Below, one piece after another: positions 2,082 through 7,178 of a stretch of 64,000 bases of DNA; within the stretch, counting starts at the first letter, position 1; each line of letters opens with the position of its first letter. The position numbers and the translations under genes are program-made. The stretch is from NCBI RefSeq assembly GCF_000739595.1, contig NZ_BBJP01000039.1, positions 62,001 to 126,000 on the forward strand. Direction: 5' to 3'. Source of the stretch: Halorubrum halophilum. GTDB taxonomy: Archaea > Halobacteriota > Halobacteria > Halobacteriales > Haloferacaceae. The notes under the pieces are model-generated. The model worked only from the letters and a program-made list of their open reading frames with translations. It searched no databases and was not told the DNA's origin.

Positions 2082-2156
2082 GGCTTTGTTGAAATCCTCT
2101 TTTTCAGACATATCCTCTCTCGAAACAGCTGTTCGCTGATGGCTGCTGACTGACCA

Positions 2157-2684
2157 TTACGTGATCTCGTCAATCAGCTCAAACCCATTTTTGAACCGCA
2201 CACGATTCTCGAACCCGTGGGCGTCGAGTGTCGCAACAACCGCCTCGCCGGCGTCGATGTCGGTCGTCACGATACAGACCAGACCGCTATCCGCTTCGAG
2301 CCTTTCAACTGCGGCCGCAGCAAGCGCGGTGTCAGCCTTTTCGATCCGATCCTCGCTTCTTTTCGAGGATCGAGCGATATACGATCGGACACCGTCCATC
2401 ACTCGTGATACCGTCCCGTTCGTATAATCAGGCTCGTCGGCAACTGTAATCCAACCAGCGTCGATGGCGCTGTTGATCGGAGTCTGGCCCGGCGTACTTC
2501 TCTCCGGCGCACCACCGAGTTCGTCGTAGACCCGCTGCGGAACGACGAACGTGAGGTCGTTCCGTCGGGCAAAGCGTTCGAGAGCGGTGTACTTGTTGTT
2601 CTGTTGCCGACCACAGGCGATGAACAAACCTGTATCCGCTATCCAAGTCACGGAATCCTGCAACGGGTCGAACGTCTCACTCAT
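2157..2684 (-). CDS. PIN-like nuclease domain protein, toxin-like
   Basis: 175 residues. Acidic residues fit a PIN fold: D17 in IADTG, D54/E55 in YDELG, D118 in EKADTA and D142/D144 in TTDIDAG. PIN domains are metal-dependent RNases, typical of VapC toxins. The start lies 11 bp downstream of the winged-helix gene's stop, so the two are co-transcribed, with the putative regulator first. The pair is the whole coding content of the mobile unit 2082-3429. A toxin-antitoxin role is inferred from fold, pairing and mobility; it is not a canonical VapC, and an RNA-processing or defence role is possible. The stop codon abuts the conserved subterminal region of the element. Confidence 0.75.
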   Translation of the reverse strand: MSETFDPLQDSVTWIADTGLFIACGRQQNNKYTALERFARRNDLTFVVPQRVYDELGGAPERSTPGQTPINSAIDAGWITVADEPDYTNGTVSRVMDGVRSYIARSSKRSEDRIEKADTALAAAAVERLEADSGLVCIVTTDIDAGEAVVATLDAHGFENRVRFKNGFELIDEIT

Positions 2685-2695
2685 CGCTCTCGTAG

Positions 2696-3286
2696 TCAGC
2701 CTTCGACCGTCGGATTCTCGTTGGCATCCCGAATCTCGTCGAAGTAGGGATCAACCGGCTCCATGTCGAGGACGACGTCTCGTAGTGCCTGTAACACGGC
2801 AATTGCGAAGGCGTGCTGAAGGTCGAGTTCCCGGGCTGCAACTCGCTCCGACATGTTCCCGTTGGCGTACGGTATCGCATACGTTAGGGCGGCAGCGAGC
2901 TTTCCGAGACCGTCTCTCTCGATGAGGAGATTGAGGTCCTGATCCCGAGGAGATCGGCCGAACGCTTCGATGAGCGTCGGCGTGATCGTATACTCGTCTC
3001 CCCCGAGATTTGTCGAGAGAGTGATCGGGACTGCTGAATACGTGTGTGTTTTCTGGCCCTCATCTCGAGTGAGGACCTTGAGCTCAACGAGCGAGCCGGC
3101 ATCGGAATACGCTGTCGTCCGGGGAATCTCCAGTTCATCGACAATGTCGTCGATAGTGACCTCCTCTTGCCGGAGCACGAAGGTGTAGAGCCGCGCCAGT
3201 CGTGGCTCTTCCAGCAGCTGTGCAACTGACAGCAGGCCGTTGACGGCGCGTTCGGGGTCTCCAGCTGCCTTCGACATACAATTCAT
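2696..3286 (-). CDS. Winged-helix DNA-binding protein, antitoxin/regulator-like
   Basis: 196 residues. Residues about 30-90 form a winged helix: a helix pair around TIDDIVDELEIPRTTAYSD, then a charged wing (TRDEGQKTHTYSA). The C-terminal half is alpha-helical and unrecognised. A TATA-like stretch on the minus strand (about 3300-3310) lies roughly 25 bases upstream of either ATG 3286 or ATG 3277, so the transcript is probably leaderless and 3277 is an equally good start. It precedes the PIN gene by 11 bp in the same unit and is the natural candidate for its repressor or antitoxin. Haloarchaea carry many such PIN/HTH neighbours; exact family name not assigned. Confidence 0.7.
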   Translation of the reverse strand: MNCMSKAAGDPERAVNGLLSVAQLLEEPRLARLYTFVLRQEEVTIDDIVDELEIPRTTAYSDAGSLVELKVLTRDEGQKTHTYSAVPITLSTNLGGDEYTITPTLIEAFGRSPRDQDLNLLIERDGLGKLAAALTYAIPYANGNMSERVAARELDLQHAFAIAVLQALRDVVLDMEPVDPYFDEIRDANENPTVEG

Positions 3287-3413
3287 AATTCATGTACTAG
3301 ATAATAGTGTTTGGGGTTGCCCAATCGGACGAGATACTTCGGAAACCCTGTGCCGAGCGATTCGTGAGTCCTCTGTATTGACCGCAACCGGGGCAGAATA
3401 TATCACCTACTGA
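3287..3413. promoter_or_regulatory. Promoter of the PIN/HTH pair and right subterminal region
   Basis: Upstream of the winged-helix gene. The AT-rich stretch at about 3296-3312 supplies a minus-strand TATA box. The part near 3376-3413 (CTCTGTATT, ATCAC) is shared with the other unit's right end and is probably a transposase recognition region rather than part of the gene's promoter. Confidence 0.45.
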
Positions 3414-3429
3414 GGATTTCAACAGAGCC

Positions 3430-3437: not shown

Positions 3438-3459
3438 CGAGGCGAAAGCCTCGCCCTTC

Positions 3460-3616
3460 ACAGTAGTTGCCGAATCGGCCCGTATCAGTCACCGATCGGG
3501 TGTGAACAACGGTCTTCAGTTATATACGTAATAAAGAGATATATAAATAGAATACACCGAGTTTGATGACCAGTATCCTCGATATGAGACGTGTTGTGAG
3601 GTTCGGCAACTACTGT
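3460..3616. repeat. Small inverted-repeat element (MITE-like), 157 bp
   Basis: ACAGTAGTTGCCGAA (3460-3474) is matched exactly in reverse complement by TTCGGCAACTACTGT (3602-3616). The interior is AT-rich with no open frame. No clear target duplication is seen. A GGATGTCAA motif at 3629-3637 also occurs at the right end of the TnpB remnant (5728-5736), so IS605-type debris may be mixed in. The rest of the gap up to 3679 holds only the palindrome GCCTCGAGGC (3654-3663). Confidence 0.5.
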
Positions 3617-3679
3617 TTAGCGCGGGGAGGATGTCAAAGATAACAAGGCGAGTGCCTCGAGGCTTGCCCCCAAGGCGGT

Positions 3680-5020
3680 TCACACCCGATTAGCTGCTCG
3701 CTCGACCAGCTCGTAAGCCGTCTCGAACAGCGCCTCAGTATCGGCTTCCTCGCGTGCTTCAGCTGTCACTCGCACCAGCGGCTCGGTGCCGCTCGCACGT
3801 ACGAGGAACCAGCCTGCGTCGGTCTCCACGCGAATCCCGTCACGTGTCGAGATGTCGTCGAACTCTGCAGCCGCAATCTCGGCGACGGCCTCGACAACTG
3901 TGCTCTTCGAATCTGTCCGCACCGACTCACGCCGGATCGGATATGTGGGCAGCTCGTCGACAAGCGCCGCGAGCGATCCCTCCTGAACAACTAGCGCGGC
4001 GAGTACAAAGGCGGCGAGTGGCCCGTCTGGACACTGGGTGTGTTCGGGGAAGATCCACGCGCCGCTCGGTTCACCTCCGAAGACGACGTCTGGTTCTTCG
4101 GTCGCGGCCGCAACGTATGCATCCCCCACAGGCGTATATATCACCTCAGCACCCACGTCTCCGACCGCGTCCGCGACCAAGAGGCTCGTGTCGACTGGTA
4201 CGGCCACGCGGTCACCCGCTTCGGCCTCACGACGAGCGAACAACGCGAGCAGCGCGTCGCCGGAGACGAACTGCCCGTGTTCATCGATCGCCATCAGCCG
4301 ATCAGCGTCCCCGTCGTGAACCAGCCCTAAGTCCGCGTCGGTCGCCCCAACAAGTTTGCAGGCTGTCTCGCAGTGTTCGGCTGTCGGCTCGCTCGGTCGG
4401 CCGGGGAACCGTCCATCACGCTGGCCGTTGAGCGTCTCGACGGTACACCCCGCGGCGTGGAGTGCGTCGGCAGTCACGCGGCCGACACCGTTACCCACGT
4501 CGACGATGACGGACAGATCGTCGGGTAGTGACACCGCTGCGTGAAGTGCGCGCTCGTGTTCGGCACGAGGGCTCTCACCGTCACGTCCGTCGTTGATACG
4601 ACTGACTGTCCCGATCGCGTCGTGGGACGCGGCCGCGAACTCGCCCTCACGGACGATCTGGGCGATGCGATCGTTGCGCTCATCATCGAACGCACGGCCC
4701 GAGGCGGTCCAGAGCTTGATCCCGTTGTCGGACGGGGGGTTGTGCGAGGCGGTGACGACGACGCCCGCATCTGCGTCCTCACGACTCACCGTCCGCGCGA
4801 CCGTGGGTGTCGACTGTACGCCGACATCCGTAACGTCGCCGCCACACTCCGTGATCCCCGCGGTGAGCGCCCGGCTGAGCATGCGCCCGCTTGCGCGAGC
4901 GTCACGGCCGACCACGACTGTCTCGGCGCCGTCAGTCACAAGCGCCCGTCCCACGTCGAGTGCGAGATCGGCCGTGACCGTCTCGCCGACTGGACCGCGC
5001 ACGCCGCTGGTTCCGAACAT
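3680..5020 (-). CDS. glmM: Phosphoglucosamine mutase (GlmM-type phosphohexomutase)
   Basis: 446 residues, normal for the alpha-D-phosphohexomutase family. It interconverts glucosamine-6-phosphate and glucosamine-1-phosphate, between GlmS and GlmU in UDP-GlcNAc synthesis. All four active-site segments are visible: the phosphoserine loop TASHNPP, the metal loop DGDADR, the sugar-binding loop GGEPSGAW and the phosphate-binding loop RASGTEP. The ATG at 5020 is chosen because the protein then opens with MFGTSGVRG, the family's usual N-terminus; an upstream in-frame start adds 17 unlikely residues. GlmS and GlmU lie upstream on the same strand beyond mobile DNA. Phosphomannomutase activity cannot be excluded from sequence, but context favours GlmM. 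Confidence 0.9.
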   Translation of the reverse strand: MFGTSGVRGPVGETVTADLALDVGRALVTDGAETVVVGRDARASGRMLSRALTAGITECGGDVTDVGVQSTPTVARTVSREDADAGVVVTASHNPPSDNGIKLWTASGRAFDDERNDRIAQIVREGEFAAASHDAIGTVSRINDGRDGESPRAEHERALHAAVSLPDDLSVIVDVGNGVGRVTADALHAAGCTVETLNGQRDGRFPGRPSEPTAEHCETACKLVGATDADLGLVHDGDADRLMAIDEHGQFVSGDALLALFARREAEAGDRVAVPVDTSLLVADAVGDVGAEVIYTPVGDAYVAAATEEPDVVFGGEPSGAWIFPEHTQCPDGPLAAFVLAALVVQEGSLAALVDELPTYPIRRESVRTDSKSTVVEAVAEIAAAEFDDISTRDGIRVETDAGWFLVRASGTEPLVRVTAEAREEADTEALFETAYELVERAANRV

Positions 5021-5232: not shown

Positions 5233-5736
5233 ACCGATTCGAGGGGAATACCTGCGGCTTTAGCCACAGGATGAATCCGACAGAACTCTACACGAACCAC
5301 TGTTCGGTGGTATCCCCGAGTTTCCAAAGTCCGCAGTTTCAAGTGGTGTCAATTCGTATCTGAGGGTAAGGTCAGGTCGGAACGGAGCGATTCCGAACGG
5401 CCTTCGGAGGCGGCCTCGCCGCCGCTAATGAGACAATATCCGAAACACCAACACGGTGAACGCGAATGCCAGAAGCGTTCGTCTGTGCCTGTTGGTCGAG
5501 CAAGCCCAAAGATACCTCCAAGTCCGTCGAAGTGTCGGCGACTCCCTGCTGGCAAAAATAACAGGTGGGAGTCAGCGGCATTGAGGATAGGAGTACCGGC
5601 GGTTTGGCACCGCCAGTCAGCCACCGTTTCGTGATGGGTTAAACGGGTTCCCGAAGAAGAAATCGGACTCATGGTTGCGAACCTGAAACTCCCACCGCTC
5701 GGGATTCCTCCGCGTTCACGCGGAGGAGGATGTCAA
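5233..5736 (+). mobile_element. Internally deleted IS1341/IS605-type (TnpB) element
   Basis: About 504 bp with both ends but no intact tnpB. The left end follows TTAT (5229-5232) and reads GGGAATACC, an imperfect hairpin (CCTGCGGCT..AGCCACAGG), then ATGAATCCGACA. The intact element at 52078-53463 has the same order on the minus strand: TTTAT, GGCGAATACC, hairpin, ATGAAGCCGACA. The right end has the scaffold-like GGATTCC, a perfect hairpin CCTCCGCG-TTCA-CGCGGAGG (5706-5725) and terminates at GGATGTCAA. The middle contains short frames with Cys pairs but no RuvC motifs. It may still specify an omega-RNA-like transcript from about 5590 on (hairpin GGCGGT..ACCGCC). Confidence 0.65.
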
Positions 5737-5749
5737 TTTGCGCTCTATC

Positions 5750-5773
5750 GTTTCCGTTGAAATCCTCTTCTTC
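5750..5773. repeat. Left-end relic of a third inverted-repeat unit, used as insertion target
   Basis: GTTTCCGTTGAAATCC (5750-5765) matches 12 of 16 positions of the left terminal repeat at 2082-2097. It is followed by TCTTCTTC (5766-5773) which, joined across the inserted unit to AGATATATC at 6361, parallels TCTTTTTCAGACATATC in the 2082 unit. The relic was therefore split by the unit 5774-6352, and TCTTCTTC is its duplicated target. Confidence 0.65.
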
Positions 5774-5785
5774 GGCTCTGTTGAA

Positions 5786-6100
5786 ATCCTTAAGATCTGA
5801 TAGGATCGAGGTGCGAGATACAGAGGATGTAGTTAGCACCTGAACGATGTTATTTTCTCCGTCTATATCCTGAATTAGCCGATAGAATGTGCCTGCCAAT
5901 TGCTCATATCTTTATCGCGGACAGGGAGGTATGCAACCCTGATTTAATGGAAAAGGTTGAGCTTTTTCAAGATGGTGGTAGTACACATCGATTCCGGAAT
6001 ATATCTGATTTGCGGTATTAACGTCCGGTAAACCAGCACTGATTGATATACAGAATAATTCCATCGCTGTATGCCAGACTGTTTCGTAAACAGTGGCCAT
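5786..6100 (-). pseudogene. Possible interrupted gene inside the nested unit
   Basis: A minus-strand frame starts at ATG 6100 (MATVYETVWHTAMELF), meets TAA at 5912-5914, and continues in the same frame with protein-like sequence (LAGTFYRLIQDIDGENN) until it runs through the terminal repeat. It reads like one decayed gene with a nonsense codon, but I do not recognise it, and its 5' end overlaps the Cys-rich gene on the other strand. Alternatively it is chance sequence. Confidence 0.25.
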
Positions 6101-6214
6101 TGCGAAGGTTCTACGTGGGATGAATGTAATGAGTGTGATATTTATGTTTGTCCTCCTTGCACGGGAACCATGTCTGAATGTCCTAACTGCGGAACTACTT
6201 GGGGGTGGGGTTAG
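6071..6214 (+). CDS. 47-residue Cys-rich zinc-finger-like small protein
   Basis: ATG at 6071 opens 47 codons ending TAG; an in-frame TAA at 6056-6058 excludes a longer form. There are eight cysteines (4, 11, 19, 22, 27, 30, 37, 40), including pairs CNEC, CPPC and CPNCG, plus His10. This is enough for one or two zinc sites, like the CPxCG micro-proteins of haloarchaea. It is the only intact plus-strand gene of the mobile unit 5774-6352 and so its cargo. No function is known to me; a regulatory or nucleic-acid-binding role is a guess. No Shine-Dalgarno sequence is visible, which is common in haloarchaea. Confidence 0.6.
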   Translation: MPDCFVNSGHCEGSTWDECNECDIYVCPPCTGTMSECPNCGTTWGWG

Positions 6215-6458
6215 CAAATAGCTCTCACGATACATTTACTGTACTGAGCGATCCGGCCTGACCGAATCTGAGAGGAACTTAGTACGAGACTTGCGCTCTG
6301 TATTCAGCGTGCTCTCTCCAACCTATCACAATTTGAGGATTTCAACAGAGCCTCTTCTTCAGATATATCATCGTCTGAAGCAACCGGTCGCTGAGGAGTG
6401 CGTATTGAATGACCATGCCACCGACATCTATATCAGTATGAAAAAAGTATGAATATAC

Positions 6459-6728
6459 ATGTCCAAACACAAACGGAAAGTCGGAGATCGGGGGCAGGTG
6501 ACGATTCCGAAGGAACTGCGAGATCGTCGTGGCATTAAAGGCGGTGACGAAGTTGAATTCGTCGAAGTGAATGACGAGATCATACTCAAACCGCCGACAG
6601 ATGAAGAACGGCTTGCTGAAGGATATCGAAAGAGGGCCGAACGGTCTCGTGAGTTGGCTGAAGAAATGGAAGAAGCTTCCTCAGAAGCAACCGGGCATCT
6701 CGGTGACGCACCCGGCTGGAGCGAGTGA
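6459..6728 (+). CDS. AbrB/MazE-family antitoxin
   Basis: 89 residues. Residues 5-50 form a SpoVT/AbrB swapped-hairpin DNA-binding domain (GDRGQVTIPKELRDRRGI, then GDEVEFVEVNDEIILKP). The acidic, helical C-terminal tail (51-89) is the expected toxin-binding segment of a MazE-type antitoxin. It sits 15 bp upstream of a MazF-type gene. CTATATCA at about 6428-6435 is a TATA box 25-30 bases before the ATG, so the transcript should be leaderless. Like other MazE proteins it would repress its own operon. Upstream sequence is the split left-end relic of an inverted-repeat unit, so this pair may itself have arrived as cargo. Confidence 0.88.
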   Translation: MSKHKRKVGDRGQVTIPKELRDRRGIKGGDEVEFVEVNDEIILKPPTDEERLAEGYRKRAERSRELAEEMEEASSEATGHLGDAPGWSE

Positions 6729-6743
6729 ATTCTGGAGTCACGT

Positions 6744-7094
6744 GTGCAGGTACGCCGCGGCGACATTGTCATCGTTGAACTGAATCCCACGAAAGGGAGT
6801 GAGCAGCAAGGAAAGACCCGGCCCTGTGTTATCATCCAGAACGATGTTGGGAATCAGTACTCACCGACAACCATCATCGCTCCATTCACAACGCAGTACA
6901 CGTCTGGAGACACGTACCCGTTCGAGGTGGAAGTACTGGCTTCGGATACTGCCCTCGATCACGATTCAGTGGCAGACCTCAGTCAAATCCGGGTTGTCGA
7001 CATCGACAAACGTGTGAAAAAGAACATTGGATCTGTCCCGTCATCAGATATGGTGAAAATCGACTCGGCAATCAAAGATAGCCTCGGCATTTGA
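6744..7094 (+). CDS. MazF/PemK-family endoribonuclease toxin
   Basis: 116 residues, typical MazF length. It opens with VRRGDIVIVELNP and has the conserved GSEQQGKTRPCVIIQND segment, whose Arg is part of the MazF active site, followed by a TIIAPFTTQ strand. MazF enzymes cut single-stranded mRNA at short sequence motifs and are neutralised by the upstream MazE-type protein. The GTG at 6744 gives the standard N-terminus. An alternative GTG at 6742 is out of frame. The gene converges on glmS, whose stop lies 85 bp further on. No truncation is seen. Confidence 0.9.
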   Translation: MQVRRGDIVIVELNPTKGSEQQGKTRPCVIIQNDVGNQYSPTTIIAPFTTQYTSGDTYPFEVEVLASDTALDHDSVADLSQIRVVDIDKRVKKNIGSVPSSDMVKIDSAIKDSLGI

Positions 7095-7178
7095 GCGAAA
7101 AGTTCCGTCAGTGTATCGTCTGTCGTCGTTCCTGTGTTCTTTGAACGATTCTCTCCGCTGAGGAGTGGTCTGTGGTGT

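Follow-up and report, generated by a model that had tools for sequence, protein, structure and literature searches.

A transposase-less unit on ISHla2/ISHxa2-type ends in Halorubrum halophilum: a probable mobile insertion cassette with a putative zinc-finger-like micro-protein as cargo

Introduction

Mobile insertion cassettes (MICs), such as MIC231A1 of Bacillus cereus and mic-qnrD (PMC3913671), are units in which the inverted repeats of an insertion sequence (IS) enclose a passenger gene in the place of the transposase, which is supplied in trans; a target duplication is a further feature of these units. Haloarchaeal MITEs have for the most part been described as non-coding, with ISH2-type elements as the exception (PMC3119063). 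Among small haloarchaeal proteins, the C(P)XCG micro-proteins of Haloferax volcanii include a majority that bind zinc and several that do not (PMC11241148).

The window analysed here is a stretch of 64,000 nucleotides from Halorubrum halophilum (assembly GCF_000739595.1, contig NZ_BBJP01000039.1, positions 62,001 to 126,000), and the sequence evidence gathered for positions 5774-6352 supports a first-pass annotation that had read them as a transposon-type unit. This unit is very likely a mobile insertion cassette with a captured gene for a 47-aa protein, which would be moved in trans by an IS5 transposase of the ISHla2/ISHxa2 type. The reading is built on the ends and their duplications, a terminal inverted repeat (TIR) common to a transposase-bearing element, cargo common to different element types, the conservation of the small protein and uninterrupted target sites; trans-mobilisation, end-skipping capture, expression and metal binding are what we infer beyond these.

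The 579-bp unit and its landing site

The features of the unit and of its surroundings in the window are as follows (TSD, target duplication).

2082-3429, no strand assigned: sister unit of 1348 bp from the same family (TSD GAAAAATT), encoding a TrmB/DUF7437 HTH protein and a PIN-like protein
5750-5773, no strand assigned: first stretch of the left end belonging to an older cassette, now eroded, with a TIR carrying three mismatches at 5750-5765; the end continues at 6361-6400
5766-5773, no strand assigned: left TSD copy TCTTCTTC, an exact match to 6353-6360
5774-5789, plus strand: left TIR GGCTCTGTTGAAATCC; in relatives the same 16-mer lies 52 bp upstream of the IS5 transposase gene
5774-5902, no strand assigned: conserved left end, TIR and subterminal region (unit positions 1-129), matching many genomes of the genus and resembling the transposase-distal end of the element L261
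6239-6352, no strand assigned: conserved right end (unit positions 466-579), with matches in other genomes
6337-6352, minus strand: right TIR, by sequence the exact reverse complement of GGCTCTGTTGAAATCC
6353-6360, no strand assigned: right TSD copy TCTTCTTC, exact
6361-7123, plus strand: rest of the older cassette, comprising the remainder of its left end to about 6400 and the mazE-like and mazF/pemK-like genes; right end lost
6459-6728, plus strand: mazE-like gene (Pfam MazE_antitoxin, 1.1e-13)
6744-7094, plus strand: mazF/pemK-like gene (Pfam PemK_toxin, 1.6e-31)

The perfect 16-bp inverted ends, the exact 8-bp duplication and the length of 579 bp are all as first proposed; the unit, which has a G+C content of 45% as against 65% for the window, holds no transposase gene. 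Its right end had also been said to match that of the sister unit at 2082-3429, a match that is real but short, extending over 29 nt at 86% identity, 16 nt of which are the TIR itself. The exact TSD makes the very recent movement that had been read from the perfect ends plausible; the perfect TIRs themselves give no date for the insertion, and dating on that ground was rejected, since the family consensus is this same perfect 16-mer.

When the unit is compared with 52 genomes of the genus, matches are found in 50, and those listed cover the ends only (about 1-137 and 455-579); the whole unit occurs in the window's genome alone, and its middle, including the 47-aa gene, is unique within this set. 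Conserved ends around a unique middle are the signature of common ends enclosing exchangeable cargo. Among plasmid records that match the unit the commonest organism is Halorubrum, and no copy was found in phage records.

The duplicated TCTTCTTC is itself part of the left end of an older member of the same family, a cassette carrying mazEF, into which the 579-bp unit inserted. Once 5750-5773 are joined to the sequence from 6361 on, a typical end is restored, with which 77 other distinct end sequences align uninterrupted, and in four other genomes (G073, G017, G074 and G019) the joined sequence runs uninterrupted into the same mazEF, which provides the empty target site that the first-pass annotation had proposed to look for. 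In G073, mazEF lies inside an 839-bp unit with both ends, whose flanking 8-mers differ at two positions; in the window the right end is gone after about 7123. In at least seven other genomes a mazEF of 92-95% identity is found at unrelated sites without an end and starts at about the same boundary (window positions around 6399-6404). Counting copies of either kind, at least ten other genomes of the genus carry the mazEF pair of 6459-7094 at 92-96% identity in unrelated places, with ends around some of the copies and not around others; the pair is mobile by more than one route. Adjoining the outer cassette, at about 5690-5740 of the window, is a hairpin, CCTCCGCGTTCACGCGGAGG, which we take to be reminiscent of haloarchaeal IS605-type or PATE ends.

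Common ends and exchangeable cargo

Ends of this type are far more frequent than expected by chance. Five TIR-like sites with at most three mismatches are present in the window against 0.17 expected, and the 3.68-Mb genome holds 58 sites within two mismatches of the 16-mer against 1 for the pattern read backwards. Pairing of inward-facing TIRs in this genome yields numerous complete units that have exact 8-bp duplications and differ widely in what they contain. Of 93 convergent TIR pairs in loci collected by TIR sequence, 39 are flanked by an exact 8-bp duplication, compared with none in shifted controls (five per pair, for the same 93 pairs). A later collection comprises 52 distinct units with exact TSDs, 14 with a transposase gene and 38 without; the transposase-less units of at least 360 bp (n=30) fall into 27 cargo groups when grouped by DNA. 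Units were drawn by TIR matches, and these counts describe that sample rather than a census. On this sequence evidence, dozens of different genes are carried on the same type of ends across the haloarchaea, and it is the breadth of this cassette family, rather than one small protein, that is the surprising part.

The cargo is varied. A 591-bp unit elsewhere in the window's genome (L020:1501-2091, contig C82; TSD ATTGGAAC) encodes a protein of 107 aa that contains a zinc ribbon of the RPB9 type (Pfam E 1.6e-7), and zinc-binding cargo is thus not unique to the 579-bp unit; the first-pass annotation had held a zinc micro-protein to be unusual as transposon cargo, and the product of the 579-bp unit is indeed zinc-finger-like, but as cargo it is one among dozens. 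In a 2026-bp unit (L136:2217-4242; TSD AAATTCTC) whose TIRs are perfect lies the gene of a fni-type isopentenyl diphosphate isomerase (type 2), the only one detected in that genome (G405). Over 1241 bp this unit matches, at 99.2% identity, the copy that the window's genome carries in other surroundings, and, where capture of a housekeeping gene is concerned, either copy could be native on these data. The TrmB-type HTH/DUF7437 and PIN-like genes of the sister unit resemble a toxin-antitoxin pair, and toxin-antitoxin-like pairs recur as cargo, in 2082-3429, in the mazEF of 6459-7094 and as an AbrB-like/PIN pair in the locus L212. Between the sister unit and glmM, window positions 3449-3690 hold inverted repeats, one of 26 nt at 85% identity (3449-3474/3602-3627) and one of 13 nt that is perfect (3495-3507/3678-3690). 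In a contig classed as viral (IMG/VR), a unit with an exact TSD, TGGTACTC, carries an HNH endonuclease gene (L125:9928-10843), and such cassettes may therefore travel on proviruses.

How cargo may be acquired

Transposase-bearing copies are also loaded. A complete ISHxa2 copy (2490 bp, TSD CACCGTCT) contains two genes besides its transposase, and other complete copies likewise hold extra DNA, with small membrane proteins, a lipoprotein and a SnoaL-like protein among its products. ISHxa2 shares an 838-bp segment, which encodes a DUF6498-like membrane protein, at 91.8% identity with a 1279-bp unit of the window's genome that has no transposase; the segment starts just after the transposase gene in ISHxa2 and ends at a copy of the element end in both elements. 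Two copies of an HTH cassette in the window's genome, with different TSDs (GATTATTC and GACAATAT), are 98.9% identical over 709 bp, and one of them reaches 131 bp further to a second end while keeping the first end inside. Internal end copies of this kind are present in 10 of 53 units against 0.13 expected, and a nested TSD-flanked unit explains only one of these ten.

These internal copies point to capture by end-skipping, and a mechanism can be proposed on this basis. The 273-aa transposase of the ISHla2/ISHxa2 type would act in trans on ends of this type, producing 8-bp target duplications; now and then it would skip its own end, pair with a farther one and take the DNA between them, leaving an internal end copy behind. 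Loss of the transposase gene after capture would turn such an element into a transposase-less cassette. A gene for a 47-aa zinc-finger-like micro-protein, captured in this way, would travel with its own upstream region, and the resulting 579-bp unit would then have inserted into the left end of the older mazEF cassette. The cargo was, from the arrangement of ends and junctions, probably acquired by end-skipping capture followed by transposase loss.

The alternative that survives best, although we regard it as rather unlikely, is that cargo diversity arises mainly through homologous recombination between end copies, or through other transfer of genes beside them, and not through transposase-driven capture. 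The many end copies could recombine, and the mazEF copies of 92-95% identity at unrelated sites without ends speak for other routes of spreading; however, exact TSDs at the outermost ends show that ends and cargo moved as one unit, and in ISHxa2 and the 1279-bp unit internal end copies stand at cargo junctions. TSDs and junctions together leave room for recombination as the step that first joined an end to its cargo.

The transposase-bearing relatives

Units of 1.2-3.7 kb with the same ends encode a 273-aa protein that matches the IS5 model NF033579 (E 7.5e-64, over the cut-off), and the IS5-type DDE transposase is thus found in these autonomous relatives and not in the 579-bp unit itself. The transposase gene starts 51-53 bp, mostly 52, inside the TIR in 33 of 34 copies, the remaining copy having no recognisable TIR at that place. 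In the window's genome one such gene lies at C96:56590-57408, preceded at a distance of 52 bp by a TIR with one mismatch. Public annotation relates the 273-aa protein to ISHla2 (Halorubrum lacusprofundi, 94%) and ISHxa2 (Halopiger xanaduensis, 96%). The left end of the 579-bp unit is 75% identical over positions 1-129 (BLAST) to the transposase-distal end of L261, a transposase-bearing member of this group, with a global identity of 0.65 against a shuffled maximum of 0.54; with the other autonomous copies compared, the unit has the TIR in common and not the subterminal region.

Other transposases of the same genome were considered as the source of the ends and set aside: IS6-type elements have ends that read GGTGTTCAGATAAGGATTG, IS1595-type genes are not flanked by a close TIR pair, and the ISH1-like IS5 groups have TIRs that are similar and not identical. 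Mobilisation by a different IS5 group seems improbable. One candidate would be the ISH1-like elements, whose TIR is GGCTGTGTTGAATCGC or GGCTCTGGTGAATCGC: they also make 8-bp duplications, are abundant in the window's genome and have similar TIRs. Their TIRs, however, depart from that of the unit at 3-4 of 16 positions, while most copies of the 273-aa group carry the identical 16-mer, and L261, a member of that group, has the subterminal region of the unit. Mobilisation by an ISHla2/ISHxa2-type transposase therefore remains the preferred reading.

The 47-aa Cys-rich protein

Two features in the middle of the unit concern its cargo.

6043-6050, plus strand: TATA-like box TTGATATA, 21-28 nt before the ATG; weak, in an AT-rich context
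6071-6214, plus strand: gene of a 47-aa Cys-rich (eight Cys) zinc-finger-like protein, read as captured cargo, with a 48-aa homologue in the genome G315

The eight cysteines described in this frame are present, but it is not the single intact plus-strand gene it had been taken for, since frames of 44 aa (5887-6021) and 42 aa (6093-6221) lie on the same strand; the longest frame of the unit is one of 107 aa on the minus strand. The 47-aa frame is the only one for which evidence of conservation was obtained. A search of 391 Halobacteria genomes returned one clear match, a 48-aa frame in G315 (E 2.7e-13), from another genus of the same family, which is 54% identical and keeps all eight cysteines; a profile search of the same genomes added one weak match, part of a longer frame in G116 (E 2.7e-4), and plasmid records and viral contigs gave none. 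Between the two genes, identities at the three codon positions are 0.72, 0.68 and 0.36, the third position being the most diverged, and YN00 gives a dN of 0.48 and a dS of 1.97, a substitution pattern that reads as a protein-coding signal from this one gene pair. In both genes the ATG is preceded, at about 21-30 nt, by a TATA-like box, a weak indication of a leaderless haloarchaeal transcript. With a homologue that retains every cysteine and third codon positions that have diverged most, the 47-aa protein is probably the product of a real, translated gene.

The least credible reading of the unit, a plain non-coding MITE moved in trans whose 47-aa frame is open by chance, can draw on its shortness, its several overlapping small frames, the mostly non-coding nature of haloarchaeal MITEs (PMC3119063) and the fact that no family model matches the protein, but is opposed by a homologue in another genus that keeps length and all eight cysteines while third codon positions are far more diverged.

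As for what the protein may do, it contains three CxxC motifs (C19NEC22D, C27PPC30T and C37PNC40G), all conserved as CxxC in the homologue, the full C(P)XCG being found only in the last. At fewer than 70 aa and with at least two C(P)XCG-like motifs it falls within the definition of the C(P)XCG micro-proteins, and it resembles a zinc finger and is a putative zinc binder. Library family models, including Pfam, gave no match, and the best hit of a PDB search, an HVO_2753-like protein, was not significant (E 0.68); an AlphaFold2 single-sequence model is uninformative (pLDDT 47).

The first-pass annotation had suggested asking whether homologues lie between such ends. The sole clear one does not: it is chromosomal, flanked by dinB-like and Lrp/AsnC-like genes (read from translations), and no TIR within four mismatches was found in its 3.1-kb locus. 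For this reason the 47-aa gene is more readily taken for captured cargo than for a part of the transposon itself and, judged by the genomic context of its homologue, seems to be an ordinary but rare gene acquired by capture; no chromosomal source of it was found at high identity.

Implications

When these elements are annotated as IS, the transposase is named, while the genes carried between the ends are entered as hypothetical and unrelated. A wider and tentative reading, to which we give somewhat less than even weight, is that ISHla2/ISHxa2-type IS5 elements form a standing gene-packaging system of the haloarchaea, in which end-skipping adds whole genes as concatenated, end-separated modules, the transposase is shed, dozens of one- or two-gene cassettes accumulate per genus and rare genes are spread, among which would be zinc micro-proteins and toxin-antitoxin pairs. 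Continual packaging of whole genes by one IS5 group would constitute a simple route of single-gene transfer in archaea and could account for the strain-specific orphan genes that lie next to housekeeping loci such as glmM. It would also offer a computational handle, any gene between such ends with an 8-bp duplication having moved.

Comparison with known systems

No description of exchangeable cargo on ISHla2-type ends was found in the literature searched, which took in few subscription journals and not ISfinder, and an earlier description may exist. ISHla2 and ISHxa2 themselves have the same 16-bp TIR and 8-bp duplication as the 579-bp unit and carry their transposase gene 52 bp inside the TIR; the unit differs in having none, and the subterminal regions vary. 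Like haloarchaeal MITEs and ISH2 (PMC3119063, PMC10264941), the unit is transposase-free, TIR-bounded and, as we suppose here, moved in trans, and ISH2 also has a non-transposase frame; unlike MITEs, which are mostly non-coding families of short, near-identical copies, nearly every unit here differs in content, and the 579-bp unit has a unique middle with a conserved gene.

Plant Pack-TYPE elements (PMC8903248) are comparable in being non-autonomous DNA transposons with captured gene sequence between their ends, although the present units are prokaryotic, carry whole small genes and belong to a different transposase family. A homologue of the 47-aa gene exists elsewhere without TIRs, but at only 54% identity, and the mazEF of the neighbouring cassette is seen with and without ends. 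The cargo protein, in turn, is similar to the C(P)XCG micro-proteins (PMC11241148) in its size and paired CxxC knuckles, one of them a complete CPNCG, and differs in having eight cysteines, with the additional C4 and C11, and no significant match to a known member.

The closest likeness is to the MICs. The same 16-mer that bounds the 579-bp unit flanks IS5 transposase genes, its target duplication TCTTCTTC is exact, and a 47-aa gene with a conserved homologue stands in the transposase's place; MICs get their transposase in trans, and so, judging by its sequence, would this unit. It differs from the described MICs in its IS5-family ends, its archaeal host and the dozens of cargos found on one type of end, and in that its transposase-bearing relatives carry cargo too.
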